A DNA stretch of 14,734 bases from Bacteroidales bacterium (GTDB lineage Bacteria > Bacteroidota > Bacteroidia > Bacteroidales > UBA932): NCBI GenBank assembly GCA_017651785.1, contig JAGCCD010000075.1, positions 1 through 14,734 of the forward strand, in the 5' to 3' direction. Positions 1 to 14,734 of this stretch are shown in pieces (positions within the stretch are counted from its first letter, which is position 1; each line of letters starts with the position of its first letter). The notes under the pieces were generated by a model, which did no database searches, was not told the DNA's origin, and saw only the letters and a program-made list of their open reading frames with translations. Position numbers and translations under genes: made by a program.

Positions 1-723
1 ATGTACGCCCGCAACAGGATCGTATACATGGACGAGGCTCCCTGGCCCGAGGGGCACGACTACATGAAGCTTGAGGGAATGCCCATGGGCTCGGCCCTGT
101 ACTATAAGGTTGGCGGCATCAACAAGACGGACGAAGACCTTGTGAACCACAAGCAGATGAGCGGCGCCACCAAGGGCGACTTCTGGTTCGAAGACCTTGA
201 CGGCGACGGCGAAATCACCACGCTGGACCGCTACCGGATGGGTTACACAGCCGTTCCCCAGATAGTGTTCGGCCTGAGCTTCGACGCCTTCTGGAAGAAC
301 TTCGACCTGTCTATCCTTTTCCAGGGACAGGCGCTCGCACGCTACTACTACTCCCCTGCAATGGACCCCGTCTCCGGCAACCTCGACTACTTTGCAGCAG
401 AGAACGCCTGGAGGCTTGACAACACAGATTCCAACTACCCCAGGATAGGTTCCACGGTGAGCAACGGCGGCGTAAACCGCTCCGACTTCTACTCCCGCAA
501 CGCCGCGTTCCTGCGTCTTAAGAACGTAGAGCTGGGCTACACCCTGCCAGTGAGCCAGTTCAGCTACAAGCTGGGGATCAGGAGCCTGCGCTTCTATGTG
601 GCAGGTTACAACCTCCTCACCTTCTCCGAACTCAAGTTCGTCGACCCCGAAACCTCGGACGAGAGCTACCAGACCTACCCGCAAATGCGGATTGTGAACA
701 CCGGTGTCAAACTTACATTCTAA
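1..723 (+). CDS. susC: SusC/RagA-family TonB-dependent outer-membrane transporter, C-terminal fragment
   Basis: This is the last 240 residues of a SusC-like transporter, a family normally about 1000 residues long. These proteins form a 22-strand outer-membrane barrel that imports oligosaccharides, driven by TonB. The frame is already open at base 1 and the methionine there is internal, so the gene is cut by the window edge. What remains is typical barrel sequence: alternating aromatic strands, the segment PQIVFGLSFDAFWKNFDLS at about residues 86-104, an LRLKNVELGYTLP strand near residue 171, and a terminal phenylalanine (VNTGVKLTF) as expected for the last strand read by the Bam machinery. 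The SusD-like partner begins six bases after the stop, the usual arrangement of the complex. The plug domain, carboxypeptidase-like domain and TonB box lie outside the window, so substrate type cannot be read from this piece. Confidence 0.96.
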   Translation: MYARNRIVYMDEAPWPEGHDYMKLEGMPMGSALYYKVGGINKTDEDLVNHKQMSGATKGDFWFEDLDGDGEITTLDRYRMGYTAVPQIVFGLSFDAFWKNFDLSILFQGQALARYYYSPAMDPVSGNLDYFAAENAWRLDNTDSNYPRIGSTVSNGGVNRSDFYSRNAAFLRLKNVELGYTLPVSQFSYKLGIRSLRFYVAGYNLLTFSELKFVDPETSDESYQTYPQMRIVNTGVKLTF

Positions 724-729
724 GAGGCC

Positions 730-2712
730 ATGAAAAAGATTTTCGTAATTATAGCCGCAGCTCTGGCCCTGGCATCCTGCAACGACGGTTTCCTTGACAA
801 GAAGCCCCTCAACAAGCTCAGTGAAGACGCCGTCTTCAACAGCGACGCCCTTGCAGAAGCGTACGTAAACGCGCTCTACACTGTTCTTCCAGACCCTTAT
901 CAGGAGGGCAACGTAGGCTGCATCTCAGACGAGGGATACTTCCGCTACGGAGGCACCTCCACCCGCTATATCGCCTCCGGATTCATGGATCCGGACAACG
1001 TTATGTACATCAAGGAAGGCGGACAGGCCCATAACACCCGTACCACCATCCTCAACATATGGAACCGCACCTACGAGTGGATCTACAGGATGAACTACTT
1101 CCTGCAGTATATAGATCAGAACGGCACGGCAATGTCCGACGCCGCAAAGCAGCGCCTCACCGGCGAGGTCTATTTCCTCCGCGCCTGGTCGTACTTCCTG
1201 CTCATCCAGCGCTACTCGGGCGTCCCCATCATCAAAAAGCCCCACGCGCTTACCGACGACTTCACCGTCGAGCGCTCAGACTTCGACACCTGCGTAGACT
1301 TCATCCTGGAAGACCTGGACAAGGCCTATTCCATGCTTCCCGCCAAGGGAGAAACCGCAAAGGGACGCATCAACAAAGATGTAGTCCTCGCGCTCCGAAG
1401 CCGCCTCACCCTCATTGCCGCATCCAAGCAGTTCAACGACCCCGACCAGCCTCAGGGCGGCATCTTCCGCGGCGCATACAGCCGTGACAAGTGGGAAAGG
1501 GCGTTCGACGCCGCCAAGGCAATAGTAGACCGTGCCGATGTAGACGGCGCCTATGTGCTGGACGACACCTACGACGGCTTCTGGAAAGATCCCGATTCTC
1601 CCGAACTCATCTGGGCAAAGTACTTCGTGGCCACCTCGGACGCAGACGACAACTACACCAAGAAAGCCCAGCTCCTGTACACCGTAGAGTACTTCAACGG
1701 CTGGGAGGCGTTCCACCCTTCACAGGCGGCGCAACTCGACTTCGAGATGACCAACGGCAAAAAGTGGTTCGAGGAAGATTCCGGATACGATCCAAACCAC
1801 CCGTACAAGAACCGCGATCCCCGTTTCTACTACTGCATCGCAGCTCCCTTCTACCCCTACGAGCACACGGACAAGAACGGCAACACTACCTCGGAGCCTC
1901 TGCTGCTCTACTACCAGTACGACGACATGACCAGGGCAGACTTCCTGGTGAGCAAGAACCCCAGCGAGCCCGCATACTCCGCAAGGGGCAAGCACCAGTG
2001 CTCGGGCAACCACGCCGGACTTGAGCTCTACAAGTGGTTCATTCCCACTTCATACATCTCCGAGTCGCAGACCGGCAGCCTCCTTTACCCCTGGTTCCGC
2101 CTTGCAGAAATGTATCTCAACTATGCAGAGGCCGCCTACATGCTGGGCAAGGAAGACATCTGCCGCGAATACATCAACAAGATTCGCCAGAGGCCCGATG
2201 TAATGATGCCTCCCGTGACCGAGAGCGGAGAAAACCTCTGGGACCGCCTGGTGAACGAGCGTCGCGTTGAGCTGTACGCAGAGACCTTCCGCTACTTCGA
2301 CCTGCGCCGCTGGAAGATGGCAGATTTCTATGAGAACGTGCCTCTGGGCAGCGCCGTGGCGATGGTGCTCAAGAACGGCAACCAGATGGACACCGTATAC
2401 CGCGTCGCCCGCCTGTACGACGAGACCAAGAACAACACCAACTACTACTGGGGAAACAAAGAGGCCAGCTCCACCTACGTCTACTCTGGATACACCTCAG
2501 ACCCCCGCTACGGCAAACCCATAGAATACATCATCACCTACAAGTGGCTCGGCAAGGAGTACAAGATAGACTTCGGCGACTGCATCCTCAACCAGAACCC
2601 CACTCCGAGGTACTTCCCCGAGGACGGACGCAACTACCTCATGCCAATCCCCCGCAACGAGATAACCAAGAGCGAGGGCAAGCTCCTCCAGAATCCTGGA
2701 TATCCCAACTAA
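730..2712 (+). CDS. susD: SusD/RagB-family surface glycan-binding lipoprotein
   Basis: This is a SusD-like lipoprotein of 660 residues, which sits as a lid on the SusC barrel and captures glycan at the cell surface. A lipoprotein signal peptide is clear: MKK, a hydrophobic run, then LASC with Cys17 as the lipidation site. The N-terminal family motif follows immediately (NDGFLDKKPLNKLSEDAVF). The TPR-like helical core is recognisable at residue 148 onward (YFLRAWSYFLLIQRYSGVPI), and the C-terminal SusD signature LVNERRVELYAE starts at residue 507, followed by FRYFDLRRWK. The family is usually 500-600 residues, so this member is long. The extra length falls mostly in aromatic-rich loops between about residues 290 and 450, where the ligand site usually lies. 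The gene follows susC by six bases and precedes the next lipoprotein by four. It is not an enzyme. Ligand specificity is inferred only from its neighbours. Confidence 0.96.
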   Translation: MKKIFVIIAAALALASCNDGFLDKKPLNKLSEDAVFNSDALAEAYVNALYTVLPDPYQEGNVGCISDEGYFRYGGTSTRYIASGFMDPDNVMYIKEGGQAHNTRTTILNIWNRTYEWIYRMNYFLQYIDQNGTAMSDAAKQRLTGEVYFLRAWSYFLLIQRYSGVPIIKKPHALTDDFTVERSDFDTCVDFILEDLDKAYSMLPAKGETAKGRINKDVVLALRSRLTLIAASKQFNDPDQPQGGIFRGAYSRDKWERAFDAAKAIVDRADVDGAYVLDDTYDGFWKDPDSPELIWAKYFVATSDADDNYTKKAQLLYTVEYFNGWEAFHPSQAAQLDFEMTNGKKWFEEDSGYDPNHPYKNRDPRFYYCIAAPFYPYEHTDKNGNTTSEPLLLYYQYDDMTRADFLVSKNPSEPAYSARGKHQCSGNHAGLELYKWFIPTSYISESQTGSLLYPWFRLAEMYLNYAEAAYMLGKEDICREYINKIRQRPDVMMPPVTESGENLWDRLVNERRVELYAETFRYFDLRRWKMADFYENVPLGSAVAMVLKNGNQMDTVYRVARLYDETKNNTNYYWGNKEASSTYVYSGYTSDPRYGKPIEYIITYKWLGKEYKIDFGDCILNQNPTPRYFPEDGRNYLMPIPRNEITKSEGKLLQNPGYPN

Positions 2713-2716
2713 AAGT

Positions 2717-4057
2717 ATGAAATTCAATCTTCTGATAATTGCGGCAATGCTTGCCGTCTCCTGCAACGGGGGCGGCAAGCTTACCTGCAACTACAACGCG
2801 GCCGATATATCAACCGTAGAGGGTGAGCACACCATGCTCGCAGGCTTCGCCGCCCGCAACGAACTGTCTACCGACCTGCACCTGCCGCTATACACCCACT
2901 GCCTCGTGGTGTCTGACGGCACAGACAAGGCTTGCATCATCTCCAACGACCTTATGGAGATATCGCCCGAGCTCAGCCTGGAATGGCGCAAGGAGATATC
3001 TGAAAAGTCCGGCCTACCGCTTGACCGCATATTCATGCACTGCATCCACACCCATTCGGCGCCACGCAACGGCGGCTGGAGGGCGGAACCTGGCGGAAGC
3101 AACTACTCCCACAAGGAACGCCTCCATAAAGTGCTGGTAGAGAATGCGGTAAAGACCATTACGGACGAGGCGTCGTTCCGTCCCTTCAAAATGGAAACCG
3201 GCATAGCGCAGACCAGCATCAACGGCAACCGCTGTGAGAAGACGGGCCCCGTAGACAGAGACGTCTATGTGGTCCGTTTCCTCGACTCAAAGGGAGCGCC
3301 CATCGTGTCCATAATGAACATCGCCTGCCATCCCGTCTGTATGGGCGCGGGCAGCCTGCTGGTCTCTTCCGACTATCCCGGCGTTGCCGGAAAGATCCTC
3401 CGGGAGGCCTGGGGCGGAGACGTCTTCCAGCTCACCGGAGCCGCCGGCAACATGGACCCGGCAAAAGGCCCCAAGAAGGTTGAGTATGCCGAGGAATGCG
3501 GCCGCAGCCTTGCAGATTCAATACTTACCGTCAAGTTCACGCCCGTCCGCGCAACCGGCGAGTTCAAGGTAGTGAACGACACCGTGGCACTGCCATACCG
3601 CATAGCGGAAGTAACGCCCGAGGCCGTAATTGCCCATGCAGAAGAGATTTCCGCCTGGGACAAGACCGTTTCCGCCAGCTGGAAAGACGATGTACAGGGC
3701 TGGAAAGAACTTATCCTGAGCCGTTTCAAAGACGGCGAGGTAAAGTCCGCGCTTGACTTCACCATGGGCGCCGTAAACATCAACGGCGTCATATTCTTCT
3801 TCACCCAGGGAGAGCCTTTCTGCGAGTACCAGATGAACGCCCGCAGCAAGTTTCCCGGCCGCACGGTATTCTTTGCCGGTTACACCAACGGACAGAATTC
3901 CTACCTGCCTTCTGCGCACGCATACGAGTACCGCAAAGGCTACGAATACGAAATCGACCAGATGCACGTCTACATCAAGGCCCCTTATCCCCTGTCGGAC
4001 AAGATGCCCCAGGCCTTCGAAGACGCCATAGAAAAAACAATACGGGAGGCATTATGA
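2717..4057 (+). CDS. Neutral/alkaline ceramidase N-terminal-domain-like lipoprotein lacking the serine nucleophile
   Basis: This 446-residue lipoprotein (lipobox LAVSC, Cys16) has the fold signature of the N-terminal catalytic domain of neutral/alkaline non-lysosomal ceramidases. Visible zinc-site motifs are HTHSAP at residues 111-116, CHPVCMG with His205, GEPFCEY with Glu366, and a tyrosine-rich stretch NGQNSYLPSAHAYEY including Tyr396. These match in order the His, His, Glu and Tyr ligands known for bacterial ceramidase. The loop that carries the ceramidase serine nucleophile (G-D-x-S-P) reads GNMDP here, with Asp247 in the serine position. The C-terminal beta domain of true ceramidases, which total about 640 residues or more, is also absent. 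A metal-dependent hydrolase acting on something other than ceramide is therefore more likely. Such proteins occur in Bacteroidetes polysaccharide loci, where their role is poorly defined. The stop overlaps the next start (ATGA at 4054). The fold call is firm, but the activity is unknown. Confidence 0.85.
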   Translation: MKFNLLIIAAMLAVSCNGGGKLTCNYNAADISTVEGEHTMLAGFAARNELSTDLHLPLYTHCLVVSDGTDKACIISNDLMEISPELSLEWRKEISEKSGLPLDRIFMHCIHTHSAPRNGGWRAEPGGSNYSHKERLHKVLVENAVKTITDEASFRPFKMETGIAQTSINGNRCEKTGPVDRDVYVVRFLDSKGAPIVSIMNIACHPVCMGAGSLLVSSDYPGVAGKILREAWGGDVFQLTGAAGNMDPAKGPKKVEYAEECGRSLADSILTVKFTPVRATGEFKVVNDTVALPYRIAEVTPEAVIAHAEEISAWDKTVSASWKDDVQGWKELILSRFKDGEVKSALDFTMGAVNINGVIFFFTQGEPFCEYQMNARSKFPGRTVFFAGYTNGQNSYLPSAHAYEYRKGYEYEIDQMHVYIKAPYPLSDKMPQAFEDAIEKTIREAL

Positions 4058-5862
4058 TGATCCTTTCTTTCCTGCTTGCCGCTGCAATAAACGTGGCCAC
4101 GGTGGCCAATCCGCCAAGGTACGACATAGTCCCCATGCCCAAGAGCCTCACTCCCGCGGAGGGCGAATTCGTGCTAAATAAAAAGACCCACCTGGTGGTA
4201 GAGGACTCCCTGTTCGGCGAAATCGCAGAAGATTTCACCGCCCAGGTGGCAACTGCCACAGGCTTTAAGCTTAACGGAAAAGGCGCGGCCATCACCCTCC
4301 GCAAAGTTCCCGGACTTGCCAAAGAGGCATACCGGCTGAATGTAAAGCCGGACGGCGTGCTCATAGAGGCAACCGAGGTGAATGGCGCCTTCTACGGGCT
4401 CCAGACGCTGCTGCAGCTGCTTCCCGCAGAGGTTTACGGCTCCGTCAAGGCAAAGGGAGTCAAGAAATGGACCGCCCCCTGCTGCTCCATTTACGACGAG
4501 CCCGAGTTCTGGTACCGCGGTTTCCTGTTCGACTCAGGACGCTTCTTCTTCCCAAAGGAGGAGCTGATGAAGTTCATCGACCTCATGGCCATGCACAAGC
4601 AGAACAAGTTCCACTGGCACCTCACGGAAGACCAGGGCTGGCGCATACAGATAGACAAGTATCCCAAGCTCACCGAGGTGGGTGCCTGGCGCAAGGAAAC
4701 CGCCTGGCACAGCGGCATCGGCAACGGAGAGCCCCACGGCGGCTTCTACACCAAAGACGATATCCGTGAAGTAGTGGAATACGCACGCAGGCGCTGCGTA
4801 GACGTTATTCCGGAGGTTGAAATCCCCGGCCACTGCACCGCCGCCATCACCGCCTATCCCGAGCTCAGCTGCTTCCCGGAGAGGCATTATGAGGTAGAGA
4901 CACGCTGGGGCATTTGGAAGAACCTCTATGCTCCCACGGCCAAAACCTTCACCTTCCTGGAAGACGTATTCACCGAGCTCTTCGACCTCTTCCCGTACGA
5001 CATCTATCACATCGGCGGAGACGAGGCACCCAAAGACGTCTACAAGGAGAGCCAGTACTGCCAGGACCTCATGAAAGTGCTTGGAATTGAGTCTGAAGAA
5101 GAGCTCCAGACCTTCTTTGTGAAGAGAATGGGAGACTTCCTGCGCAAGCACGGCAAAACCGTCATCGGCTGGGACGAAATCCTGGACGGAGGCGCCCTTG
5201 ACGACCCCATTGCAATGTCTTACCGCGGTCACGCACCCGCTGCCCGCGGCATAAAGAGGGGCATACGCGTAGTGCTCACCCCCAACCGCTGGTGCTATCT
5301 TGACAACAAGCAGGAAGACCAGGACGACCAGACCGCCCAGGAGATCTTCATGCCCCTCAAGAAAGTATACTGCTACTACCCGGCCGTAGATTCCCTGCCG
5401 GACCTCAGCGCCAAGTACATCGTTGGCTACGAGACCTGCCTCTGGACAGAGTACGTGTGGGACAACCACATCGCCGAGTACCAGGCCTTCCCGCGCAACG
5501 TGGCGGCCGCCGAGGTTGGCTGGACATCCCGCTCCAACAAAGACTGGGAGAGCTTCCGCCTGCGCATGCCCAAGATACTCAAGAGACTGGACGCCAAGCA
5601 GATAGAGTACTGCCCCGTATACTGGGACGTAATCTTCGACTACGACCGCCGTCTCCCCTTCCCCAAGCCCATGAACCTTGAGCTTGACTATCCCGACGGC
5701 GTGGTCCACTACACCCTGGACGGCTCCGAGCCCACCGCCAAGAGTCCCGTCTACGACGGCACCTCCTTCATGGTAGACAAGGGCAGCGTCATCAAGGCGC
5801 GCGGCTTCACCGCCAAGGGAAAGCCCATAGGCAAGACCGTCACTAAAGTGTTCGAAAAATGA
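4054..5862 (+). CDS. GH20 beta-N-acetylhexosaminidase (first of a tandem pair)
   Basis: This is a 602-residue family GH20 exo-hexosaminidase, which removes terminal beta-linked GlcNAc or GalNAc by substrate-assisted catalysis. Residues 1-18 look like a Sec signal peptide with probable cleavage after TVA, and there is no lipobox, so it is probably periplasmic. The GH20b-type N-terminal alpha/beta domain (about 23-145) precedes the TIM barrel. Barrel motifs include WYRG (Arg155 binds substrate), KFHWHLTEDQGWR, HIGGDE with the catalytic pair Asp323-Glu324, GWDEIL, and LWTEY. A chitobiase-type C-terminal domain with YTLDGSEPT follows near residue 550. Two pocket positions are unusual: the W of the common SW-x-G motif is tyrosine (SYRG, Tyr390), and the usual RHF is RFF (Arg163). 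The start overlaps the previous stop, and GGGAGG at 4044-4049 lies four bases before the first of two adjacent ATGs (4054 or 4057). The linkage cleaved is not determinable from sequence. Confidence 0.95.
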   Translation: MMILSFLLAAAINVATVANPPRYDIVPMPKSLTPAEGEFVLNKKTHLVVEDSLFGEIAEDFTAQVATATGFKLNGKGAAITLRKVPGLAKEAYRLNVKPDGVLIEATEVNGAFYGLQTLLQLLPAEVYGSVKAKGVKKWTAPCCSIYDEPEFWYRGFLFDSGRFFFPKEELMKFIDLMAMHKQNKFHWHLTEDQGWRIQIDKYPKLTEVGAWRKETAWHSGIGNGEPHGGFYTKDDIREVVEYARRRCVDVIPEVEIPGHCTAAITAYPELSCFPERHYEVETRWGIWKNLYAPTAKTFTFLEDVFTELFDLFPYDIYHIGGDEAPKDVYKESQYCQDLMKVLGIESEEELQTFFVKRMGDFLRKHGKTVIGWDEILDGGALDDPIAMSYRGHAPAARGIKRGIRVVLTPNRWCYLDNKQEDQDDQTAQEIFMPLKKVYCYYPAVDSLPDLSAKYIVGYETCLWTEYVWDNHIAEYQAFPRNVAAAEVGWTSRSNKDWESFRLRMPKILKRLDAKQIEYCPVYWDVIFDYDRRLPFPKPMNLELDYPDGVVHYTLDGSEPTAKSPVYDGTSFMVDKGSVIKARGFTAKGKPIGKTVTKVFEK

Positions 5863-7697
5863 GACGCTCCGCATTATATCTGGCAGCAGCGCTTCTGCTG
5901 GCGGCATGCGCCAAAGAAGCCGGGCAGCCCGCCGCTCCACAGGTCATCCCTCAGCCGGAGCACCTGCAGGCGATAGGAGATCCGTTCACCATAACGCGCA
6001 GCACGCCAATATGGATTGACACTCCGTCCGAGGAAGTGGCACGCACCGCCGGAATGCTCAGCGAGCGCTTCGGCAAGGCCGCGGGTTTCCAGCTCAAAAC
6101 CGCAGAGGAGTTCCCGCAGAGCGGCGGCATCTACTTCATGGAAACCGGGGGATACCCCCAAGAAGGTTACCTCCTGCGCGTAGAGCCCGGCCGCATCATC
6201 ATAGAATACAGCTCCGGCGCCGGTGCATTCTATGCAATGCAGACCCTCCTGCAGCTGCTCCCAAAGGAGATTTTCTCCGATTCTCCCGTAAAGGGCGTAA
6301 AATGGACGGTTCCCGGAGTAGACATAGAAGACAGCCCCCGCTTCCCCTACCGCGGAATGCATCTTGACTGCTGCCTCCACTTCTTCGACATCCCCTTCCT
6401 GCAGCGCTACATAGACCTTATGGCGCTTCACAAGGTAAACCGCTTCCACTGGCACCTCACCGAAGACCAGGGCTGGAGGATAGAGATTAAGAAGTACCCC
6501 CTGCTCACAGAGAAGGGCCAGTGGCGCAAAGAGACCGTTGTGGGCTCCCTCTCGTCGGGCATTTACGACGGCAAGCCCCACGGCGGCTTCTACACGCAGG
6601 AGGAGATAAAGGACCTCATAGCGTATGCAGCCGCCCGATATGTCACAATTATACCGGAAATAGAGATTCCCGGCCACTCACTTGCGGCCATATCCTGCTA
6701 TCCCGAGCTCAGCTGCGGACTGGAAGACCATTACGAGACCGCCACCCGCTGGGGCATCTTCCGTCAGGTCTACTGCCCTAAGGAAGAGACCTTCAAGTTC
6801 CTGGAAGACGTGTTCGACGAGGTGATAGACCTCTTCCCGTCCGAGCTCATCCACATAGGCGGCGACGAGTGCCCCAAGACAAGCTGGAAGCAATGTCCCC
6901 ACTGCCAGGCGCTTATAAAGAAGCTCGGCCTCAAGGACGAGTTCGAGCTGCAGAGCTGGTTCATCCAGAGGATGGAGAAGTACATCAACTCCAAGGGACG
7001 CCAGATAATAGGCTGGGACGAAATCCTCCAGGGAGGCCTTGCCCCCAACGCCAAAGTGATGTCCTGGCTAGGCGAAGAGGGCGGAATAAAGGCCGCCCAG
7101 CAGCATCACGAGGTGGTAATGGCACCATATCCCAAGTACTATCTTGACTACTGGCAGGCAGATCCCGACAGCGAACCCCTCGCCATGGGCGGCCCCACCC
7201 TGCTGCGCACAATGTATGAGTACAACCCCGTGCCCGATGTCCTTACTTACGAGGAACAAAAGTACATAATCGGAGTTGAGGGCTGCGTGTGGACGGAATA
7301 CATGCCCACTCCCGCCCGTGTAGAGTACATGGCCTGGCCCCGTATGTGCGCCATTGCAGAGAGCGGCTGGAGCAAGGCACCCAAAGACTGGGACGGCTTC
7401 ACCCGCAGGCTGGAAACCCACCTTGGCAGGCTCGACCTGCTGAACGTGGGCTACTGCAAGGCTTTCTGGAACCCGTTCATAGACTTCCACAAAGACACTG
7501 AGTACAGCAAAGTGGTCACAATGAGCGTAGACGCTCCGGATGCTGAGATCCACTATACCCTGGACGGCACCACCCCCACTGCGGCTTCACCCCTGTACAC
7601 CGGCCCCTTCGCCATCAACCGCCAGCAGAAAGTGACGGCTGTCACCATAAGGAACGGAAAGCAATTAGGAGAAATCAAGTATAAAGAATTCAGATAA
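5859..7697 (+). CDS. GH20 beta-N-acetylhexosaminidase lipoprotein (second of a tandem pair)
   Basis: This 612-residue GH20 enzyme is a paralogue of its upstream neighbour, but it is a lipoprotein: the signal peptide ends LLAAC with Cys17, so it is anchored in a membrane. The order is GH20b-like domain (about 30-155), barrel with PYRG (Arg165), RFHWHLTEDQGWR, the catalytic HIGGDE with Asp336-Glu337, GWDEIL, the canonical pocket SWLGEEGG (Trp403), YYLDYWQ and VWTEYM, then a C-terminal chitobiase-type domain containing YTLDGTTPT. The motif that is usually D-x-x-R-H-F reads DCCLHF (170-175), so leucine replaces arginine, while Trp403 keeps the pocket of ordinary hexosaminidases. The two GH20 genes share almost identical DNA across the HWHLTEDQGW motif, consistent with duplication, but differ in signal type and pocket residues, suggesting divided roles. 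The start overlaps the previous stop (ATGA at 5859). Confidence 0.96.
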   Translation: MRRSALYLAAALLLAACAKEAGQPAAPQVIPQPEHLQAIGDPFTITRSTPIWIDTPSEEVARTAGMLSERFGKAAGFQLKTAEEFPQSGGIYFMETGGYPQEGYLLRVEPGRIIIEYSSGAGAFYAMQTLLQLLPKEIFSDSPVKGVKWTVPGVDIEDSPRFPYRGMHLDCCLHFFDIPFLQRYIDLMALHKVNRFHWHLTEDQGWRIEIKKYPLLTEKGQWRKETVVGSLSSGIYDGKPHGGFYTQEEIKDLIAYAAARYVTIIPEIEIPGHSLAAISCYPELSCGLEDHYETATRWGIFRQVYCPKEETFKFLEDVFDEVIDLFPSELIHIGGDECPKTSWKQCPHCQALIKKLGLKDEFELQSWFIQRMEKYINSKGRQIIGWDEILQGGLAPNAKVMSWLGEEGGIKAAQQHHEVVMAPYPKYYLDYWQADPDSEPLAMGGPTLLRTMYEYNPVPDVLTYEEQKYIIGVEGCVWTEYMPTPARVEYMAWPRMCAIAESGWSKAPKDWDGFTRRLETHLGRLDLLNVGYCKAFWNPFIDFHKDTEYSKVVTMSVDAPDAEIHYTLDGTTPTAASPLYTGPFAINRQQKVTAVTIRNGKQLGEIKYKEFR

Positions 7698-7700
7698 ACT

Positions 7701-8540
7701 ATGGCACTCAGACTAACGGAGCAACCTTCGCTCCACGACAATCTGGAAAAGAAGAGCGTGGCACAGCTGCTGCGCGAGATCAACGAGGAGGACAAGAAAG
7801 TACCCCTGGCAATAGAGGCCGCCCTTCCCCAGATAGAAACCCTGGTAAACGCAATAGAAAAAACCATACTGGGCGGCGGCCGTATGTTCTATCTTGGCTG
7901 CGGCACCGGCGGAAAGCTTGCCGTTCTTGACATCCTTGAGGTTCCCAACACCTACGGCGTAGACCCCGAGATATGGCAGGCAGTTCTGGCCGGCGGCGTA
8001 GAGAACCTCGTCCTCGACCTTGAAGAGGCTGAGGACGACATAGAGGAAGGCTGGAGGACCCTGCGGGACAAGCACCACATTACGCCCAAAGACATAGTGG
8101 TTGGCATATCCGCCAGCGGCTGCACGCCGTACGTTCTTGCTGCAATGAAGGCCTGCAAAGAGCACGGCATCCCCTGCGGCTCCTTCTGCAACAACCCCGG
8201 TTCCCCCATTTCCGATTGGGTAGACTATCCGGTAGAGATCATCACCGGCCCCGAATTCATTACGGGCAGCACCAGAATGAAGTCCGGCACCTCGCAGAAA
8301 CTCCTCTGCGACATGATCAGCACAACCATTATGTGCCGCCTGGGCCGCGTGGAGGGCAACCGTATGGTGCGGGCCAACCTCATCAACAACAAAGTTGTAG
8401 ACCGTCTCACCCGCACCATGGTAGAGCGCAACCCCGGCCTTAGCTACGAGTTCTGCGAGCAAACCATCAAGAAGTGCGGCGGCCTGGTAAAAGCCGAGGA
8501 ATACCTCATAAAGAGCGGTGTAATCAAGGCACGCGTATGA
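7701..8540 (+). CDS. murQ: N-acetylmuramic acid 6-phosphate etherase (MurQ-like, SIS domain)
   Basis: This 279-residue cytoplasmic SIS-domain protein (no signal peptide) matches MurQ, which removes D-lactate from MurNAc 6-phosphate to give GlcNAc 6-phosphate in peptidoglycan recycling. The family landmarks are in order: the N-terminal INEEDKKVPLAIE, the glycine loop YLGCGTGGK (64-72), LEVPNTYGVDP with Glu80, EEAEDD with Glu111, SASGCTPYV (137-145), NPGSP and TGSTRMKSGTSQK. Glu80 and Glu111 align with the catalytic glutamates 83 and 114 of E. coli MurQ. Several near-invariant loop residues differ from E. coli: GAGTSGR becomes GCGTGGK, ASGRTPY becomes ASGCTPY and SECPPTYG becomes LEVPNTYG. It is slightly shorter than the 298 residues of E. 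coli MurQ. This could be a diverged paralogue with altered substrate. It is the only cytoplasmic enzyme in the operon, and the kinase supplying its phosphorylated substrate is not nearby. It starts three bases after the GH20 stop. Confidence 0.9.
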   Translation: MALRLTEQPSLHDNLEKKSVAQLLREINEEDKKVPLAIEAALPQIETLVNAIEKTILGGGRMFYLGCGTGGKLAVLDILEVPNTYGVDPEIWQAVLAGGVENLVLDLEEAEDDIEEGWRTLRDKHHITPKDIVVGISASGCTPYVLAAMKACKEHGIPCGSFCNNPGSPISDWVDYPVEIITGPEFITGSTRMKSGTSQKLLCDMISTTIMCRLGRVEGNRMVRANLINNKVVDRLTRTMVERNPGLSYEFCEQTIKKCGGLVKAEEYLIKSGVIKARV

Positions 8541-9871
8541 AATCGATCCGCATACTCCTGATTCCCGCCTGCTGCCTGCTGCTTGCCGCCACCTGCTGCA
8601 AGGAGCCGGCAAAGGAGCCGGTAGACAACTTCAAAGGTCTGGTCATCAACGAAATCTCCGCGCACGACGAGACCACTGACGCCATTTCCTGGGTAGAGAT
8701 CCTCAACACAGGCTCCGAGGCCATAAGCCTGGAGGGCCTTGGACTCTACATCACGGACGAGTATTTCAACGACCGCCGCATCTACACCGGCACCGGCAGC
8801 CTCGCCGCAGGAGAGCGCCTTGTGCTCACAACTGCAGACGAGTCGCTGGGCACGGGCATCAATTCAACGTCCCAGTTCGTCCTGCGCCTCGGCACAAAGG
8901 AGGTAACTACAGACACGTTCAACCGCGAAGAGGCGGCGCCAAAAGCGCTTACCGCACGCGGCACGTACCAGCGCATTCCTGACGGCACCGGCGACTGGCG
9001 CGTCCTCCCGTTCCATAGCCGCAACAAGGCCAACGCCATTGTTGACATCGATGCCCAGAATCACACCGCCATCTGGGTATGGAGCAGCCATATCCCTTCC
9101 TGGCTCGAGAATGACTGCGCAGAGATGAAAAGGCTCTACAACCTGGGCTACAGGCATATCCTGCTCAATTTTGTTGCATTCAACCCGTCAAACAAGCGTC
9201 GCACGCTAGAGTTCATGGAGGCTGCGGAAGACATGGGCTGGATTGTTCACGCATGGCTCCAGTGCTTCTACAACGGCGACTGGGAGAGTCCCGTAGACGA
9301 TGAGAACAACTGCTACAAGGAATACATCTATGAGCGCATCCGCAACAATGCCCGTTCTTACATAGAAGAATACGGAGTAAAGGGCCTGCACCTTGACTAC
9401 GTACGCTTTGGAGGCACGGCATACAAGCACAACCCTTCTGCGGAGGTCACTGCCATAGGCGCCATTGACAAGTGCTGCCGCGAGATCCGCGAGTTGGCCG
9501 ACAGCTATGAGGCCGGCATCCTTACATCCGCCGCCCTCATGCCGGAGATCAATTCGGCAATGTATTACGGACAAGAACCTTCCCACATGGGCAAATACCT
9601 GCACATCCTGATGCCCATGATTTATCGCTACTCCTACCACTATTCCGACGATTCGTGCAAGAGAGTGGCCAACTGGTTCGCAGACAACGCCGCCGACGCC
9701 CAGATGTGGTCCGGTATCCAGACCTACAGGGGCAACGACTCAAAGGTAGACCCCATGAACGCCGAGGATCTCCGCAAAGACATAGACATCTTTATGGACA
9801 CCCACGGCTCCGGAATAGTACTCTTCCGTTACGGCCTCGGGACCTTCCCCGACGTAAACGACATCAAATAA
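8537..9871 (+). CDS. Putative lipoprotein: lamin-tail domain plus glycoside-hydrolase-like TIM barrel
   Basis: This protein has 444 residues. The chosen start is the ATGA overlap with the murQ stop, because it gives a clean signal peptide (MKSIRILLIPACCLLLAATCC). A frame open from 8474 would only add a non-hydrophobic extension inside murQ. Lipidation at Cys20 or Cys21 is likely, although the lipobox is imperfect. Residues 34 to about 150 form a lamin-tail domain (GLVINEISAHDE, WVEILNTGS, LGLYITDEYF), a beta fold common in secreted bacterial proteins. From about 178 to the end is a TIM barrel with WVWSSHIPSW, HAWLQCF, the segment GLHLDYVRFGG (Asp287) and MPMIYRYSYHY. The HLDYVRF strand resembles the uncharacterised glycoside-hydrolase-like groups related to DUF187/GHL10 and DUF4015. 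An enzymatic role on the target glycan is inferred from the fold and the locus. No characterised activity can be assigned. Confidence 0.82.
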   Translation: MKSIRILLIPACCLLLAATCCKEPAKEPVDNFKGLVINEISAHDETTDAISWVEILNTGSEAISLEGLGLYITDEYFNDRRIYTGTGSLAAGERLVLTTADESLGTGINSTSQFVLRLGTKEVTTDTFNREEAAPKALTARGTYQRIPDGTGDWRVLPFHSRNKANAIVDIDAQNHTAIWVWSSHIPSWLENDCAEMKRLYNLGYRHILLNFVAFNPSNKRRTLEFMEAAEDMGWIVHAWLQCFYNGDWESPVDDENNCYKEYIYERIRNNARSYIEEYGVKGLHLDYVRFGGTAYKHNPSAEVTAIGAIDKCCREIRELADSYEAGILTSAALMPEINSAMYYGQEPSHMGKYLHILMPMIYRYSYHYSDDSCKRVANWFADNAADAQMWSGIQTYRGNDSKVDPMNAEDLRKDIDIFMDTHGSGIVLFRYGLGTFPDVNDIK

Positions 9872-9911: not shown

Positions 9912-12900
9912 ATGAAAAAAATCCTTTTGTATTTGACAGCGGCACTCACTACGCTCGCGATCTTCAGCTCCTGCGAAAAGGAGAAGGAGCCCGAGTACGA
10001 CGTGAACGCCATGGCAAAGGTCACTCAGGCAAACCTGATTGACGCCGCAGCTGCGGCTTACGCCACTTGGGAAGAAGAAACCGTACTTCCCGAGACTCTC
10101 AAAGTAGAAGGAGAGCCTATCACGAAGGCACAGGAACTGGAGCTTACCAAAGCCCAGTACAACTTCGCCCTCGCACAGGTTCTCGTGGACCTCGTTGCAG
10201 GCAAGAAGGACGACGTGATTGTCCTCAACTACAAGCCCGCAGACCACCCGGACCGCGACAGCTACGACAAAGATGAAGTGGCGGTAACCGGAGGTCCCAA
10301 GATCGCCGAAGGCACTGAAGACCTGGCAGACCTTGCCAAGCGCTTCATCGAGGCTGCAAAGGACAAGGGAACCATTCCCAACCAGACCCTCGTAACCCGT
10401 GACGGAGCAAAGGCAATCGCCTTCTCCACCAACCGTCTGATGGTGTCCATCCTCCGCGCACTCGCAGAGTACAAGAAGGCCGGCTCCTTCCCCAAGAGCG
10501 TCACTACAGACTACCTCTCCGCGGCAGCATCCCTCAAGGGCTTCGCAGAGCAGTTCGTGAAGATCCTTGACATCTGGGAGAAGACCGTCGGTACCGTCTC
10601 CGCAGACGGCTCCCACTGCACCGACAACAACAGCGCATGGCAGAACGTACACTTCGTACCTATCCCCTTCTCCGGCGGCGCATATGCTGACGGCGTAGAC
10701 CAGTACGACGCAAAGTACCAGCCCTACTTCACCGTAGAGATTGACGGCACCACCTACACTTCCGCACAGACCTGGGGTATCGCCCTCCGCGGTATCGTAG
10801 ACCTTATCACCAAAGAAGGATCCGCAAAGTGGCAGCCCAGCCGCAACCCGTTCGCCCACACAATGGGCAATGGCGCATCCCTCAAGGAGCCCATCCCCGC
10901 CGTATACGATTACGACATCTGGGGCCAGTATCCCTGGTATGAGAGCACCAATGACGGACCGGCCATCAATCTTACCGAGTTCTCTGCTTATCAGATTGCA
11001 CGTACCGTCACCTGGTTCCTTGCCCGTCAGGCAGCTCCCCAGGACATCACCGGCATCAGCCCTCTGGGCAAGATCGGCAACTACCAGTTCTACGGAACCG
11101 ATCCCGACGAGAGCATCGTCGAGGAAGGTATGAGCGGCTTTGTGAGCTCGATGCGTATGTGGCTCATCGCTGCCCGCTTCTACAAGTACCTGCTTGACAA
11201 CAACATCACAGAGAACGTCTACGACGCCGTGAAGGATGTCAAGTTCTCCACCGACCTGTACGGCGTAGAGATGCCCGACATCGACCTGCTTGACAAGAAG
11301 GTTGACCTCGACTCCCAGGGCACCGCAGTAACCGCCAAGTTCAACGCCAAGAAGCCTTGGACCGCCACCGCATCCGAGAGCTGGATCCACGTAGATCCCA
11401 CCAGCGGTAGCGCCGGAACCGACATCGTCATCACCGTCACTGCAGATCCCAACGCCGGCGACACCCGCGAAGGCGAAATCGTCCTCAAGGGCGGTAACGT
11501 CGAGGGTCTCGCCATCCCCGTGAAGCAGGCCAAGTATGTAGAGCCTTCCAAGGCAACCCTGAGGGAATTCGCAGAAGAGTTCGTAAAGGGTCTGGACGTC
11601 TGGGCAGCAACCGTCGGTACCGTTGAGTCCGAGGGCAAGCACCTCATTGAGAACAATACCGCCTGGACAGACGTACACTTCATCCCTGTAGGCCACACCG
11701 GCGGTCCTTACGACGACCACGGCGGCAACCAGTATGATGAAACCCTCTACACTCCCTGGGTGCTCCACGTCGGAGATCAGGTCTACACCTCCGCACAGGC
11801 TTGGGAAATCGCTATCCGCGGACTGCTCAACATGGTCATCGCAGAAGGCGAAGAGTTCCTTCCTACCATGGACGGCCGCAACAAGGAATACACCCTTGCT
11901 AACAACAAGGCGTTCGGAGAGCTGATGATGTCCAATCCTTCTGAGGATTGCAAGTGGGGCAGCTATCCCTGGTACGAGGCATACGACGATGTTCAGGGCC
12001 TCACCTACAACGGCAAGCCCGTCACGGAGGTTGATGTGAACTTCATGGTGAAGGTCTGCTCCTGGCACGTCGTTCGCGGTCTCATCAAGACCCCCGGCAA
12101 CCAGAATCCTCTTGGCGCTATCGGCAACTACCAGGAGTTCGGAAACGATATTTCCGGCACTCTCGTCCTGGAAGGTTACTCCGGACTCATCGCTCCTATG
12201 CGTGAGCTCATGGTCCTGATGCGTATCTACAAGTACATCCTCGATAACAATATCGACAACAACGTATACGACGCTCTCAAGGACCAGAAGTTCGACTTCG
12301 ACCTCTATGGTGTAGACATTCCCGAGGCACCCAAGCCCACCATCGCAGAATTCGCAAAGGAATTCGCAAAGGTGGCCGACAAATGGGACAGCACCGTTGG
12401 AACCGTTTCCTACAGCTATGACGGCAAAGACTACAATATGGAGAACGTACACTACGTTCCCGAGAACTTCACCATCTCCGTAAAGGGAACCAGCCTGGAC
12501 AAGTATCAGATGCACGAGGTGGCAATGCGCGCCCTCAAGGCTCTTGAGGCCGGCGGTTCCTTCGCCGACAGCATCGAGGAGCCCGGCACTTACACTCCTG
12601 CTTCCGCTCCTTACCACGAGTACAACGATGCCCTCAAGGAGACAGAGGCCGGTCTTGACCTGCTCTCCAACTTCGCCACCAGGTGCCTCAACTACCTGAA
12701 GAACAACGGCGAGTGGCCTAATGTCTGCGGATATCCCCGCACCTCCGACCCTGTTCTCACCACCTACAACGGATATGTCTGCGTAGAGCGCAACCTTCTC
12801 ATGCTGTCCCGCCTCTGCCGCGAGATCGTGAGCAAGAACATCACCAATGTTGCCGACATCGCAAGCATCAAGGTGAGCACGGAGCTCTGGGGACAGGGCA

Positions 12901-14734
12901 GCGAACCCGCAGGCCCCGCCCTTAAGGACTTCGCAAGGGAATTCGTAAAGGGTCTTAACGTTTGGCAGAGCACCGTAGGCAACGTTGACGCAGACGGCAT
13001 CCGCAACCAGTTCAGCGAAAAGGGCGCATGGTTCAACGTGCACTTCATCCCTATCGTTCCCAACGAGGCCTGCGAATACCTTGAGTACGGCAACAACCAG
13101 TACGATCCCAAGTACACCCCCTGGAAACTCAATGTCAACGGCACCGAGTACAGCTCAAGCCAGGCATGGGAAATCGCCATCCGCGGCCTTATGGACATGG
13201 TTACCGCAGAAGGTGACGAGTTCCTCAACGACATGACCGACCGCAACAAGGCTTACACCCTGCAGGACGGTCTCTCATTCTCTACGGCAAAGGTCTCCAA
13301 GCCCAGCGCACAGAACAGGTGGGGCAAACACCCCTGGTACGAGTACGACAACCTCGTGACCGACGGGGGCAACAAGATTGAATCCGTAGGCGTAGACTTC
13401 ATGGTTAAGGTAGGTGCATGGCACGTGGTCCGTTCCTTCATCCCCGCAGGTAGCAACAATCCTCTGGGAATGATAGGCAACTACCAGGAATTCGGCAGCA
13501 AGGACGGCACTCTGCATCTCGGAAACTACTCCGGTTACATCGCCCCTATGCGCGAGCTCCTCATCCTCATGCGCATCTACAAGTACTTGCTGGACAACAA
13601 CATCGACAGCAACGTCTACACCGCCATCAAGAACCAGAAGTTCGACTTCGACCTCTATGGCGCCTCCGGCGATCCCATCAAGCTCAATGAATTCGCCGCA
13701 GAATTCGTCAAGGGCCTTGAAGTGTGGGAGAAGACCGTCGGTACTGTAGAGTCAGAGAGCCAGCACCTCATGGAGAAAGGAACCGCATGGGAGAACGTAC
13801 ACTTCATTCCCGTCGGCAAGACCGGAGGTGAATACGACAGCCACGCCGGCAACCAGCACGACTCCAAGTACACCCCTTGGAAGCTCAATGTGAAGGGCGT
13901 AGAGTTCACCTCGGCCCAGGCCTGGGAAATCGCGATACGCGGCCTGCTCGACATGGTCCTCACCGACGGTCAGGGCTACATCGGCAAGATGACAAGCCGC
14001 AATAAGCCCGGATACACCCACGGAGACCATATGGCATTATCAGACATTAAAATTGCAACTCCTTCCAAGTACGCAATCTGGGGCAATTATCCCTGGTACG
14101 AGGATGAACACCTTACCTACAACGGCCAGGTAGTCAGCGAGGTTGGCGTAGACCTTATCACCAAGGCTTGCCTGGGTCATCTCGTACGCGGACTCGTAGG
14201 TATCCCGGGAGTCTTCGAGCCTCTTGGAAAGATCGGAAACTTCCAGACCTTCGGCACCGACGACAGCGGCCTTATCCTGGACGGCTACAGCGGATACATC
14301 GCACCCATGCGTGAGCTCGTCCTGCTTCTGCGCTTCTACAAGTACCTGCTCGACAACCAGATAGACGCCAACGTCTACACTGCAGTGAAGGATGTCAAGT
14401 TCGACTATGACATGTACCATCAGGAAGCCGCTGCCGGAAACATCACCATAGACGGCAACTTTGACGACTGGGCAAATGTTACCGGCGCAGAGCCTTCAGA
14501 TGCCTTCAATGCGTTCAAGGTGACCAATGATGCCGACAACTTCTATTTCTACGTTGAAACGGATCCGGGTTCAAGGCTTTGGACCGGCGGCGGATACCTC
14601 TATCTCTATTTCAACTTCAAGAATGACCTTACTCAAGGAGCATATGGCGGAGCAACAGGTATGCACGACAACAAGTATGACGCATACATTTTCATGTACC
14701 TCTTCGGAGGCTCTGCTGATGCACCCAAGATTGA
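9912..14734 (+). CDS. Giant modular repeat lipoprotein with BACON and CBM9-like domains, 3' truncated
   Basis: The frame is open from ATG 9912 to the right edge, at least 1607 codons, without a stop. The signal peptide (MKKILLYLTAALTTLAIFSSC) ends at a lipobox with Cys21 and is followed by alternating charged residues EKEKEPE, which suits export to the cell surface. Layout: a helical N-terminal region (about 30-200), repeat 1 (208-451), a BACON domain (458-540), repeat 2 (550-800), a shortened repeat 3 (811-994), repeat 4 (1004-1250), repeat 5 (1258-1503), then the start of a CBM9/DOMON-like beta domain (1510 onward). Repeats share F-x-x-x-FVKGL-x-VW-x-x-TVGTV, NVHFIP, TSAQAWEIAIRGL, WG-x-YPWYE, GYSGYIAPMREL, YKYLLDNNI and KFDFDLYG. 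No catalytic motif is visible. It is probably a surface binding or adhesive protein serving the upstream hydrolases, in the slot where SusE/F-like proteins often sit. The full-length family is not one I recognise. Confidence 0.9.
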   Translation, partial: MKKILLYLTAALTTLAIFSSCEKEKEPEYDVNAMAKVTQANLIDAAAAAYATWEEETVLPETLKVEGEPITKAQELELTKAQYNFALAQVLVDLVAGKKDDVIVLNYKPADHPDRDSYDKDEVAVTGGPKIAEGTEDLADLAKRFIEAAKDKGTIPNQTLVTRDGAKAIAFSTNRLMVSILRALAEYKKAGSFPKSVTTDYLSAAASLKGFAEQFVKILDIWEKTVGTVSADGSHCTDNNSAWQNVHFVPIPFSGGAYADGVDQYDAKYQPYFTVEIDGTTYTSAQTWGIALRGIVDLITKEGSAKWQPSRNPFAHTMGNGASLKEPIPAVYDYDIWGQYPWYESTNDGPAINLTEFSAYQIARTVTWFLARQAAPQDITGISPLGKIGNYQFYGTDPDESIVEEGMSGFVSSMRMWLIAARFYKYLLDNNITENVYDAVKDVKFSTDLYGVEMPDIDLLDKKVDLDSQGTAVTAKFNAKKPWTATASESWIHVDPTSGSAGTDIVITVTADPNAGDTREGEIVLKGGNVEGLAIPVKQAKYVEPSKATLREFAEEFVKGLDVWAATVGTVESEGKHLIENNTAWTDVHFIPVGHTGGPYDDHGGNQYDETLYTPWVLHVGDQVYTSAQAWEIAIRGLLNMVIAEGEEFLPTMDGRNKEYTLANNKAFGELMMSNPSEDCKWGSYPWYEAYDDVQGLTYNGKPVTEVDVNFMVKVCSWHVVRGLIKTPGNQNPLGAIGNYQEFGNDISGTLVLEGYSGLIAPMRELMVLMRIYKYILDNNIDNNVYDALKDQKFDFDLYGVDIPEAPKPTIAEFAKEFAKVADKWDSTVGTVSYSYDGKDYNMENVHYVPENFTISVKGTSLDKYQMHEVAMRALKALEAGGSFADSIEEPGTYTPASAPYHEYNDALKETEAGLDLLSNFATRCLNYLKNNGEWPNVCGYPRTSDPVLTTYNGYVCVERNLLMLSRLCREIVSKNITNVADIASIKVSTELWGQGSEPAGPALKDFAREFVKGLNVWQSTVGNVDADGIRNQFSEKGAWFNVHFIPIVPNEACEYLEYGNNQYDPKYTPWKLNVNGTEYSSSQAWEIAIRGLMDMVTAEGDEFLNDMTDRNKAYTLQDGLSFSTAKVSKPSAQNRWGKHPWYEYDNLVTDGGNKIESVGVDFMVKVGAWHVVRSFIPAGSNNPLGMIGNYQEFGSKDGTLHLGNYSGYIAPMRELLILMRIYKYLLDNNIDSNVYTAIKNQKFDFDLYGASGDPIKLNEFAAEFVKGLEVWEKTVGTVESESQHLMEKGTAWENVHFIPVGKTGGEYDSHAGNQHDSKYTPWKLNVKGVEFTSAQAWEIAIRGLLDMVLTDGQGYIGKMTSRNKPGYTHGDHMALSDIKIATPSKYAIWGNYPWYEDEHLTYNGQVVSEVGVDLITKACLGHLVRGLVGIPGVFEPLGKIGNFQTFGTDDSGLILDGYSGYIAPMRELVLLLRFYKYLLDNQIDANVYTAVKDVKFDYDMYHQEAAAGNITIDGNFDDWANVTGAEPSDAFNAFKVTNDADNFYFYVETDPGSRLWTGGGYLYLYFNFKNDLTQGAYGGATGMHDNKYDAYIFMYLFGGSADAPKI
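10020..10472 (+). other. N-terminal helical region with two pseudomurein-binding-repeat-like units
   Basis: Residues 37-97 and 137-187 of the giant lipoprotein each follow the layout of the pseudomurein-binding repeat: an amphipathic helix, a x-LP- or x-IPN- turn, a short V-x-G strand, then a second helix. Unit 1 has LIDAAAAAYATW, VLPETLKVEG and YNFALAQVLVDLVAGK. Unit 2 has LADLAKRFIEAAKDKGTIPN and TNRLMVSILRALAEY. TKAQ occurs twice, eight residues apart, in unit 1. The resemblance is by eye and needs a profile search. Confidence 0.45.
10533..11264 (+). repeat. Tandem protein repeat 1 (residues 208-451)
   Basis: This is the first copy of the module, 244 residues. It starts LKGFAEQFVKILDIWEKTVGTV, continues NVHFVPIPFSGG, TYTSAQTWGIALRGIVDL, WGQYPWYES and LGKIGNYQFYG, and ends LLDNNITENVYDAVKDVKF. 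The GYSGYIAPMREL element of the other copies is altered to GMSGFVSSMRMW, making this copy the most diverged of the four full-length ones. It is separated from copy 2 by the BACON domain. Confidence 0.9.
11283..11531 (+). other. BACON domain within the giant lipoprotein (residues 458-540)
   Basis: This is an immunoglobulin-like beta domain with the full BACON pattern: a PW (Trp483), then SWIHVDPTSGSAG (Trp491), VTADPN, TREGEIVLKG, and a final strand IPVKQA. BACON domains are typical of secreted Bacteroidetes proteins. They are proposed to bind carbohydrate or mucin, or to act as spacers. Here it sits between repeats 1 and 2 instead of at the N-terminus. Confidence 0.88.
11559..12311 (+). repeat. 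Tandem protein repeat 2 (residues 550-800)
   Basis: This is a full-length copy, 251 residues. It runs from LREFAEEFVKGLDVWAATVG through NVHFIPV, GGNQYDETLYTPW, TSAQAWEIAIRGLL, WGSYPWYEA, PLGAIGNYQEFG and GYSGLIAPMRELMVLMRIYK to KFDFDLYG. It most resembles copies 4 and 5, and its 3' end shares DNA with copy 4. Confidence 0.92.
12277..12310 (+). repeat. Direct DNA repeat shared by modules 2 and 4 (copy 1)
   Basis: Bases 12277-12310 match 13627-13660 at 33 of 34 positions, with 28 identical in a row from 12283. They encode the module end KFDFDLYG. The copies lie 1350 bases apart in phase, so recombination between them would remove or add about two modules without changing the frame. Confidence 0.85.
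12342..12893 (+). repeat. Tandem protein repeat 3, shortened and diverged (residues 811-994)
   Basis: This 184-residue copy keeps the opening (IAEFAKEFAKVADKWDSTVG) and NVHYVP but lacks the GG-x-Y-D-x-x-Y-x-PW stretch, the TSAQAWEIAIRGL motif, the YPWYE motif and the GYSGYIAPMREL motif. In their place are VSVKG-like and helix segments, including LNYLKNNGEWPNVCG followed by LLMLSRLCREIVSKNI. It reads in frame and is a variant module, not a broken one. Confidence 0.8.
12921..13661 (+). repeat. Tandem protein repeat 4 (residues 1004-1250)
   Basis: This is a full-length copy of 247 residues. It opens LKDFAREFVKGLNVWQSTVG, carries NVHFIPIVP, GNNQYDPKYTPWKLNVNG, SSQAWEIAIRGLMDM, WGKHPWYEY, NPLGMIGNYQEFG and GYIAPMRELLILMRIYKYLL, and closes KFDFDLYG. 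It is highly similar to copies 2 and 5. Confidence 0.92.
13627..13660 (+). repeat. Direct DNA repeat shared by modules 2 and 4 (copy 2)
   Basis: This is the second copy of the near-identical 34-base stretch described at 12277-12310. The single mismatch is at 13632 (A here, G at 12282). Confidence 0.85.
13683..14420 (+). repeat. Tandem protein repeat 5 (residues 1258-1503)
   Basis: This is the last copy, 246 residues. It starts LNEFAAEFVKGLEVWEKTVG and has NVHFIPVGKTGGEYD, YTPWKLNVKGVEF, TSAQAWEIAIRGLLDMV, WGNYPWYED, PLGKIGNFQTFG, GYSGYIAPMRELVLLLRFYK and a slightly altered end, KFDYDMYH. It leads directly into the CBM9-like domain. Confidence 0.92.
14439..14734 (+). other. CBM9/DOMON-like domain, start only (residue 1510 onward)
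   Basis: The segment opens ITIDGNFDDWANVTG, the hallmark start of CBM9-like and related beta-sandwich domains of Bacteroidetes lipoproteins. It continues FKVTNDADNFYFYVE and a WTGG-x-YLYLYFNF strand that lines a putative ligand face. The window ends inside it, so the rest of the binding site and anything beyond cannot be seen. Confidence 0.72.

Follow-up and report, generated by a model that had tools for sequence, protein, structure and literature searches.

The window analysed here, 14,734 nucleotides long, is the whole of contig C99 of a draft Bacteroidales genome (GCA_017651785.1), whose 270 contigs add up to 1.47 Mb at 67% completeness. Its main genes all lie on the forward strand, almost touching each other, in the order SusC (C-terminal end), SusD, a ceramidase-like amidohydrolase, two GH20 enzymes, a MurQ homologue, a lamin-tail/glycosidase-like protein and a giant open reading frame (ORF). 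The SusC/SusD pair together with degradative enzymes, kept in relatives, identifies the region as a polysaccharide utilization locus (PUL). The giant ORF, the subject of this report, specifies a putative lipoprotein whose repeats are best read, by profile comparison, as related to pseudomurein-binding repeats (PMBR).

The giant lipoprotein

The giant frame, which the first-pass annotation had put at more than 1600 codons, does hold 1607, and all of the conserved motifs quoted there are present in its translation. No stop codon precedes the end of the window, and the protein is incomplete: a 1673 amino acid relative (P0002) has the same plan, is 77% identical over the compared part and ends 73 residues further on. 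The signal peptide ends in FSSC, presumably a lipobox (read by eye, without a predictor), followed by an acidic stretch.

The ORF repeats itself far beyond chance, self-BLAST giving E-values as low as 4e-56. Modules M1, M2, M4 and M5 are 43–58% identical to each other (z 68–128 against 50 shuffles), and M3 is 31–35% identical to these four (z 12–22, likewise against 50 shuffles). Of the five equal, tandem modules of ~245 residues first described, the repetition stands; their number and spacing do not. Four full modules of ~250–265 residues and one short module of ~190 are present, adjoining only in part, since a BACON domain lies between M1 and M2. That description had also missed an N-terminal repeat-pair domain and a C-terminal domain (Table 1). 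BACON-type domains are the only Pfam matches over cut-off; TIGR04145 matches the C-terminal domain weakly (24 of the 50 bits needed).

Probable relationship of the modules to pseudomurein-binding repeats

No match to PF09373 was listed for the giant protein in Pfam up to an E-value of 10. Profile comparison relates its N-terminal domain to PMBR. An N-terminal domain profile, built from 54 sequences after thinning, was compared with 33 PMBR pairs taken from the ORFs of loci L068–L082 (31 from Clostridia, two from Methanosphaera); it matched with a probability of 98.8% (E-value 6e-17), the reversed profile giving 0.4%. PF09373 is over cut-off in all three proteins scanned from the source set of these pairs. 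The same domain matched the N-terminal region of a transglutaminase family from the same genomes (98.8%, E-value 4e-17) and the pseudomurein-binding region of a Methanobacterium virus Drs3 protein (91.5%, E-value 8e-7). Its structure model (pLDDT 92.7) has the pseudomurein endoisopeptidases (Pei) PeiP and PeiR as best PDB matches, and the modelled fold is that of the PMBR region of these enzymes.

The full modules are linked to PMBR through M3. A profile of M3-type short modules (28 sequences, 10 after thinning) matched the full modules end to end (99.9%, E-value 1.2e-33) and also the 33 PMBR pairs (97.0%, E-value 9.7e-11), all reversed controls remaining at or below 0.6%. Because the short module bridges the two, the full module of ~250 residues is, in our reading, best interpreted as a PMBR pair with insertions. 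A weak match of the full module to the transglutaminase repeat region (60%, E-value 9e-5; reversed 0.3%) was also recorded, and the order helix-strand-strand-helix occurs twice, by eye, in the models of both M2 and the N-terminal domain. The M2 model itself had no PDB match at E≤0.001. The module, at first not recognised as a named domain, is not without kin. No confident match of the whole module to a family of unrelated role arose, since its kin, the PMBR, have a related one. The earlier description of a surface lipoprotein with binding modules is supported, for the lipoprotein by its signal sequence, read by eye; surface placement and wall binding are inferred.

The partner transglutaminase

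On another contig of the same genome, C76, lies a gene for a 370 amino acid protein with a PF01841 transglutaminase domain (62.8 bits) and PF09373 matches of 20.3–21.3 bits, below the cut-off of 24.9; in the same search weak PF09373 matches (E≤10), none over cut-off, also appeared in 11 of 14 control genomes. Among 120 listed homologues of this protein (of 169, in a precomputed table) 29 carry PF09373. Among 50,697 phage records it is most similar to the Drs3 'pseudomurein-binding repeat protein', at 30% identity over 81% of the query (E-value 6e-28). PF12386 (Peptidase_C71) was not listed for it up to an E-value of 1, and the Drs3 protein itself reaches 20.7 of the 22 bits required by that family. 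Forty-five of 46 Bacteroidales partner matches, and 16 of 17 others, have the cysteine, histidine and aspartate in place. PMBR units joined to a transglutaminase-type cysteine peptidase with Cys-His-Asp are the arrangement of pseudomurein endoisopeptidases, and by these computations the partner of the giant protein is Pei-like.

In a tree of 37 partner sequences the 20 from Bacteroidales all cluster together (100/99), and the Drs3 virus is their sister. Since this placement is unstarred (93/77) and the Drs3 branch is long, transfer of the gene from a virus is no more than a lead. Viral contigs scanned with the Drs3 protein yielded 15 pattern matches, of which none was confirmed.

The C-terminal domain of the giant protein is 92% identical to C76:5310–5609 (locus L007), the end of a lamin-tail-like protein of at least 943 residues. 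It appears to be a recent copy, which is perhaps the reason for the assembly break. Given this shared domain and the order MurQ–giant–transglutaminase–MurK in relatives, C76 probably follows C99. The join is not established, because an overlap of 20 or more bases between the two contigs was not found and, in the 60 loci described below, the 943-residue protein is matched only weakly and in part (41% over 66 residues). The other matches to the giant protein in its own genome are weak (C150, C178 and C209, the last within an apparent DNA ligase ORF, by eye). Downstream of the C76 transglutaminase lie a MurK-like kinase, an MFS carrier, a C45-like hydrolase and a symporter, assignments made on the copies in the same-genus genome G023.

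Gut Clostridia/Oscillospiraceae (L072, L073, L075–L082) also encode PMBR-plus-transglutaminase proteins, with several repeat pairs; Pfam finds four PMBR stretches in L077, and two such genes stand in a row in L073. These Clostridia could form another group of bacteria with an action on archaeal walls.

Composition and conservation of the locus

The features of the window are collected in Table 1. The SusC-like fragment had no Pfam match. The ceramidase-like protein is a candidate amidase for the sugar-peptide link, and the lamin-tail/PF13200-like protein, with relatives in 37 of 45 Bacteroidales loci, is a candidate new glycosidase. In three methanogen genomes PF13200 gave one match, in one genome and below cut-off, and archaeal kin of the glycosidase-like proteins are therefore unsupported.

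Table 1. Genes of the window and domains of the giant lipoprotein
Feature	Position	Strand	Basis or remark
SusC-like protein, C-terminal end	1..723	+	Position ahead of SusD; aligns with a full-length SusC-like ORF at 27% identity over 187 aa
SusD-like lipoprotein	730..2712	+	PF07980 159.7 bits, PF14322 98.8 bits
Neutral-ceramidase-like amidohydrolase	2717..4057	+	PF04734 32.7 bits, just above cut-off 32.1
GH20 beta-hexosaminidase	4054..5862	+	PF00728 349.9 bits
GH20 beta-hexosaminidase	5859..7697	+	PF00728 401.9 bits
MurQ paralogue, locus-specific	7701..8540	+	NCBIfam and genus comparison
Lamin-tail domain fused to PF13200-like glycosidase domain	8534..9871	+	Both below Pfam cut-off
Giant lipoprotein ORF	9912..14732	+	1607 codons; no stop before window end, 3' end cut by contig end
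Lipoprotein signal peptide, ending in lipobox-like FSSC, then acidic stretch	9912..9974	+	Sequence, by eye
N-terminal PMBR pair, residues ~28–205	9993..10526	+	Profile 98.8% to PMBR pairs; structure model
Module M1 (read as expanded repeat pair), residues 205–462	10524..11297	+	Self-comparison
BACON domain, residues 482–540	11355..11531	+	PF13004 43.1 bits, cut-off 25
Module M2, residues 547–811	11550..12344	+	Model pLDDT 94.1, pTM 0.92
Short divergent module M3, residues 810–998, ~190 aa	12339..12905	+	Links full modules to PMBR
Module M4, residues 1001–1258	12912..13685	+	
Module M5, residues 1255–1513	13674..14450	+	
C-terminal domain, incomplete, residues ~1508–1607 and beyond	14433..14732	+	92% identity to C76 ORF end

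A single scan of a genome collection with the partner transglutaminase yielded 60 loci: 45 from Bacteroidales, four from Methanobacteriaceae, ten from Clostridia/Oscillospiraceae and one from Omnitrophota. Some share a genome, L034 and L054 overlap on one contig, and the fetched stretches extend at most 10 kb upstream of the transglutaminase. The giant gene is present in 42 of the 45 Bacteroidales loci, and in 40 its end lies no more than 1.5 kb upstream of the transglutaminase. In L058 and L059 one gene intervenes, in L028 and L037 the fetched stretch begins at that place, and in L057 no giant gene was found in the 2.9 kb upstream. The proposed association with an amino-sugar PUL is kept in these relatives: where at least 9 kb upstream is available (34 loci) GH20 occurs in 34, MurQ in 32 and SusD in 13. 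SusD is found in 14 of all 45. In G023 a single contig carries MurQ, the lamin-tail/glycosidase-like gene, the giant, the transglutaminase, a glycosidase-like gene, the kinase, the MFS carrier, the C45-like hydrolase and the symporter.

The module was found in its own genome and G023 only in a draw of 60 relatives, and in its own genome only in an order-wide draw of 393. Among 400 same-genus genomes, 46 carry the module (E≤1e-10); all 40 with the transglutaminase (E≤1e-40) are among these (Fisher p 5e-49), as are 43 of the 45 with a locus-type MurQ of at least 66% identity (Fisher p 1e-51), kinship being ignored in both tests. The locus is conserved by computation and, within the draws made, the locus with the giant gene is seen in this genus only. 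G541 and G579 have a locus-type MurQ and no module match, a pattern of either incomplete assembly or different enzyme use.

A host is stated in 14 of the 45 Bacteroidales locus titles (13 ruminants and one horse, from a collection without control for bias). Fifteen loci belong to the RUG series, which we take to be from the rumen, one is from Candidatus Cryptobacteroides intestinipullorum, and 15 titles name no host.

Ligand of the giant protein and function of the locus

We conclude with good confidence that the giant protein is a wall-binding lipoprotein derived from PMBR, and that the conserved utilization locus to which it belongs includes a Pei-like enzyme. As the modules are best read as kin to PMBR, their ligand is likely to be a peptide-cross-linked cell wall, more likely the archaeal one. 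That this wall is pseudomurein, and the PUL a dedicated pseudomurein-utilization locus with the giant as scaffold, is the likelier reading, to which we give somewhat better than even weight. On this proposal an outer-surface lipoprotein, mainly of PMBR pairs (one plain N-terminal, four expanded, one short), would hold Methanobacteriales sacculi or wall fragments at the cell surface. The PMBR-transglutaminase lipoprotein, encoded on C76 here and adjacent in relatives, would cut isopeptide cross-links, and glycosidase-like lipoproteins and the ceramidase-like amidohydrolase would break open the glycan as well as the sugar-peptide link. Import of the pieces would fall to SusC/SusD, the two GH20 enzymes would release N-acetylglucosamine or N-acetylgalactosamine, and the MurK-like kinase, MFS carrier, specialised MurQ paralogue and glutamate symporter would use the products. 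Both the substrate and the order of these steps are our proposal.

Several results weigh against pseudomurein as the substrate, or against the kinship behind it. The N-terminal domain did not match the single PeiP sequence by profile comparison (0.5%). The full module gave 2.5% against the 33 PMBR pairs and, against the N-terminal domain, 2.1%, no better than its reversed control (3.6%). Kinship among short modules is not uniform, a second group (seeded from G023) matching full modules at 99.8% and PMBR pairs at 9%. No gene necessarily acting on N-acetyltalosaminuronic acid was found, and MurQ and MurK homologues are present in the locus. E80 and E111, the catalytic glutamates of MurQ, are kept in 35 of 35 locus MurQ sequences. 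In 18 of the 43 genomes with both the module and the locus MurQ no second MurQ was found; these include the 67%-complete draft of the window and the at least 92%-complete G455, G472, G726, G749 and G773. A usual MurQ occurs in 28 of the 46 module-bearing genomes and was not found in the window's own draft. In PMC3124540, PMB-GFP is reported to have bound Lactococcus and E. coli cells treated with lysozyme; for Lactococcus two motifs sufficed. The MurQ, MurK and PMB-GFP results suit a locus that consumes bacterial murein, with modules that attach to peptidoglycan or muropeptides, a transglutaminase directed at Lys-type cross-links, and MurK and MurQ using N-acetylmuramic acid (MurNAc) as in Tannerella forsythia. 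We regard this as a serious alternative, clearly less probable than the use of pseudomurein.

What tells against murein includes the divergence of the sugar enzymes and the presence of others elsewhere in the genome. The locus MurQ is over cut-off for the NCBIfam subfamily PRK05441 (281.6 bits, cut-off 168) and under it for the equivalog TIGR00274 (235.5 bits, cut-off 302). Matches listed in the genus fall into two groups, 66–86% and 41–49% identical to the window copy with none between, so that the locus copy is, by computation, a paralogue. It reads GTGG in 35 of 35 sequences (GTGGK in 28, GTGGR in seven), against GTSGR in the five usual copies examined, and its substrate may differ from MurNAc-6-phosphate. 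Twenty-five of the 43 genomes hold both types (19 with both listed, six inferred from the match count). NamZ_N is over cut-off in 45 of the 46 module-bearing genomes (in six as partial matches, E-value 1e-17 to 1e-20) and, among the matches listed, lies on contigs other than that of the giant gene, or more than 150 kb away in G575. A MurK-like gene stands beside the usual MurQ in three of five fetched neighbourhoods, and in L131 a NamZ gene lies within the same 14 kb as both. The locus kinase is 32–34% identical to these neighbouring kinases. In MurNAc kinase S133-P134-L135 and T94 make room for the lactyl ether, as reported in PMC10465942. By our own numbering map the locus kinase has D-S-C (38 of 39) or D-S-L (one) at the first place and Met at the second (39 of 39); this is suggestive only, as three usual copies differ there too (HSS, RSG, PSG). 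No lysozyme, lytic transglycosylase or NlpC/P60 match was found among the locus genes scanned with Pfam, and the best kin of the partner in the phage collection are methanogen-virus proteins.

Two further explanations are improbable. The giant protein might be an adhesin that anchors the bacterium to living methanogens so that hydrogen can be transferred, the enzymes only trimming the wall. Its size and many repeat pairs would fit, as would the occurrence of these repeats in lysins and wall-attached proteins of methanogens and their viruses (PMC11532034, PMC3124540), but its place in a conserved cluster, alongside homologues of SusD, GH20, kinase, carrier and MurQ, points to uptake and use. 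Slightly less probable still is binding of another amino-sugar polymer (chitin, mucin or a host glycan), the PMBR kinship reflecting shared fold ancestry only. The far divergence of the full modules from PMBR and the generality of GH20 enzymes would allow it; a Pei-like transglutaminase with plain PMBR units is nonetheless the constant partner, and the giant's own N-terminal domain stays close to PMBR.

A bolder version of the pseudomurein reading, less likely than not, is put forward tentatively: that this is the first locus by which a bacterium consumes an archaeal wall. Rumen Bacteroidales would have acquired a lysin of the Pei type from the methanogen world, used its repeats to make a giant lipoprotein that grips the wall, and adapted duplicate MurQ and MurK enzymes to archaeal amino sugars, so as to graze on or lyse methanogens. 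A search by title and start of abstract, with subscription papers mostly outside its scope, found no literature on bacterial use of pseudomurein. If pseudomurein use is true, the locus would identify a gut Bacteroidales consumer of methanogen walls, provide a carbon and nitrogen route for methanogens, whether dead or alive, and supply new enzymes for use against those of the rumen. The question of who recycles pseudomurein becomes testable with purified proteins.

Comparison with known systems

In the literature consulted, proteins that combine PMBR with a peptidase come from methanogens and their viruses, and PMB motifs alone are reported in three other bacteria, Xanthomonas, Granulibacter and Novosphingobium (PMC3124540). 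The giant protein shares PMBR units with PeiP, PeiW, PeiR and the Drs3 protein of archaeal viruses, and its locus partner has the PMBR-plus-transglutaminase architecture of the Drs3 protein. Unlike these, it is a very large bacterial lipoprotein without a peptidase domain, and most of its pairs are enlarged to ~250 residues. Surface proteins with PMBR units are also described, among them the transglutaminase-type adhesin-like proteins of methanogens and the S-layer protein MTH719 (PMC11532034, PMC3124540), and we found such units in the Methanosphaera loci L068 (Pfam) and L069 (profile). The owners of those proteins have such a wall, whereas the owner of the giant is a bacterium and its gene lies in a PUL.

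With the SusE/SusF-like surface glycan-binding lipoproteins the giant shares its size, its BACON domain and a locus with SusC/SusD and glycoside hydrolases; it differs in that several genes, the enzymes among them, stand between it and SusD upstream, and in having no SusE/F match in Pfam. The SusE/F-like role first suggested for it has gene position as its basis. The association of MurQ, a MurK-like kinase and a sugar carrier recalls the MurTKQ-type MurNAc salvage of Tannerella forsythia, but here the locus MurQ and kinase are diverged paralogues, the usual MurQ (where found) and NamZ lying elsewhere.
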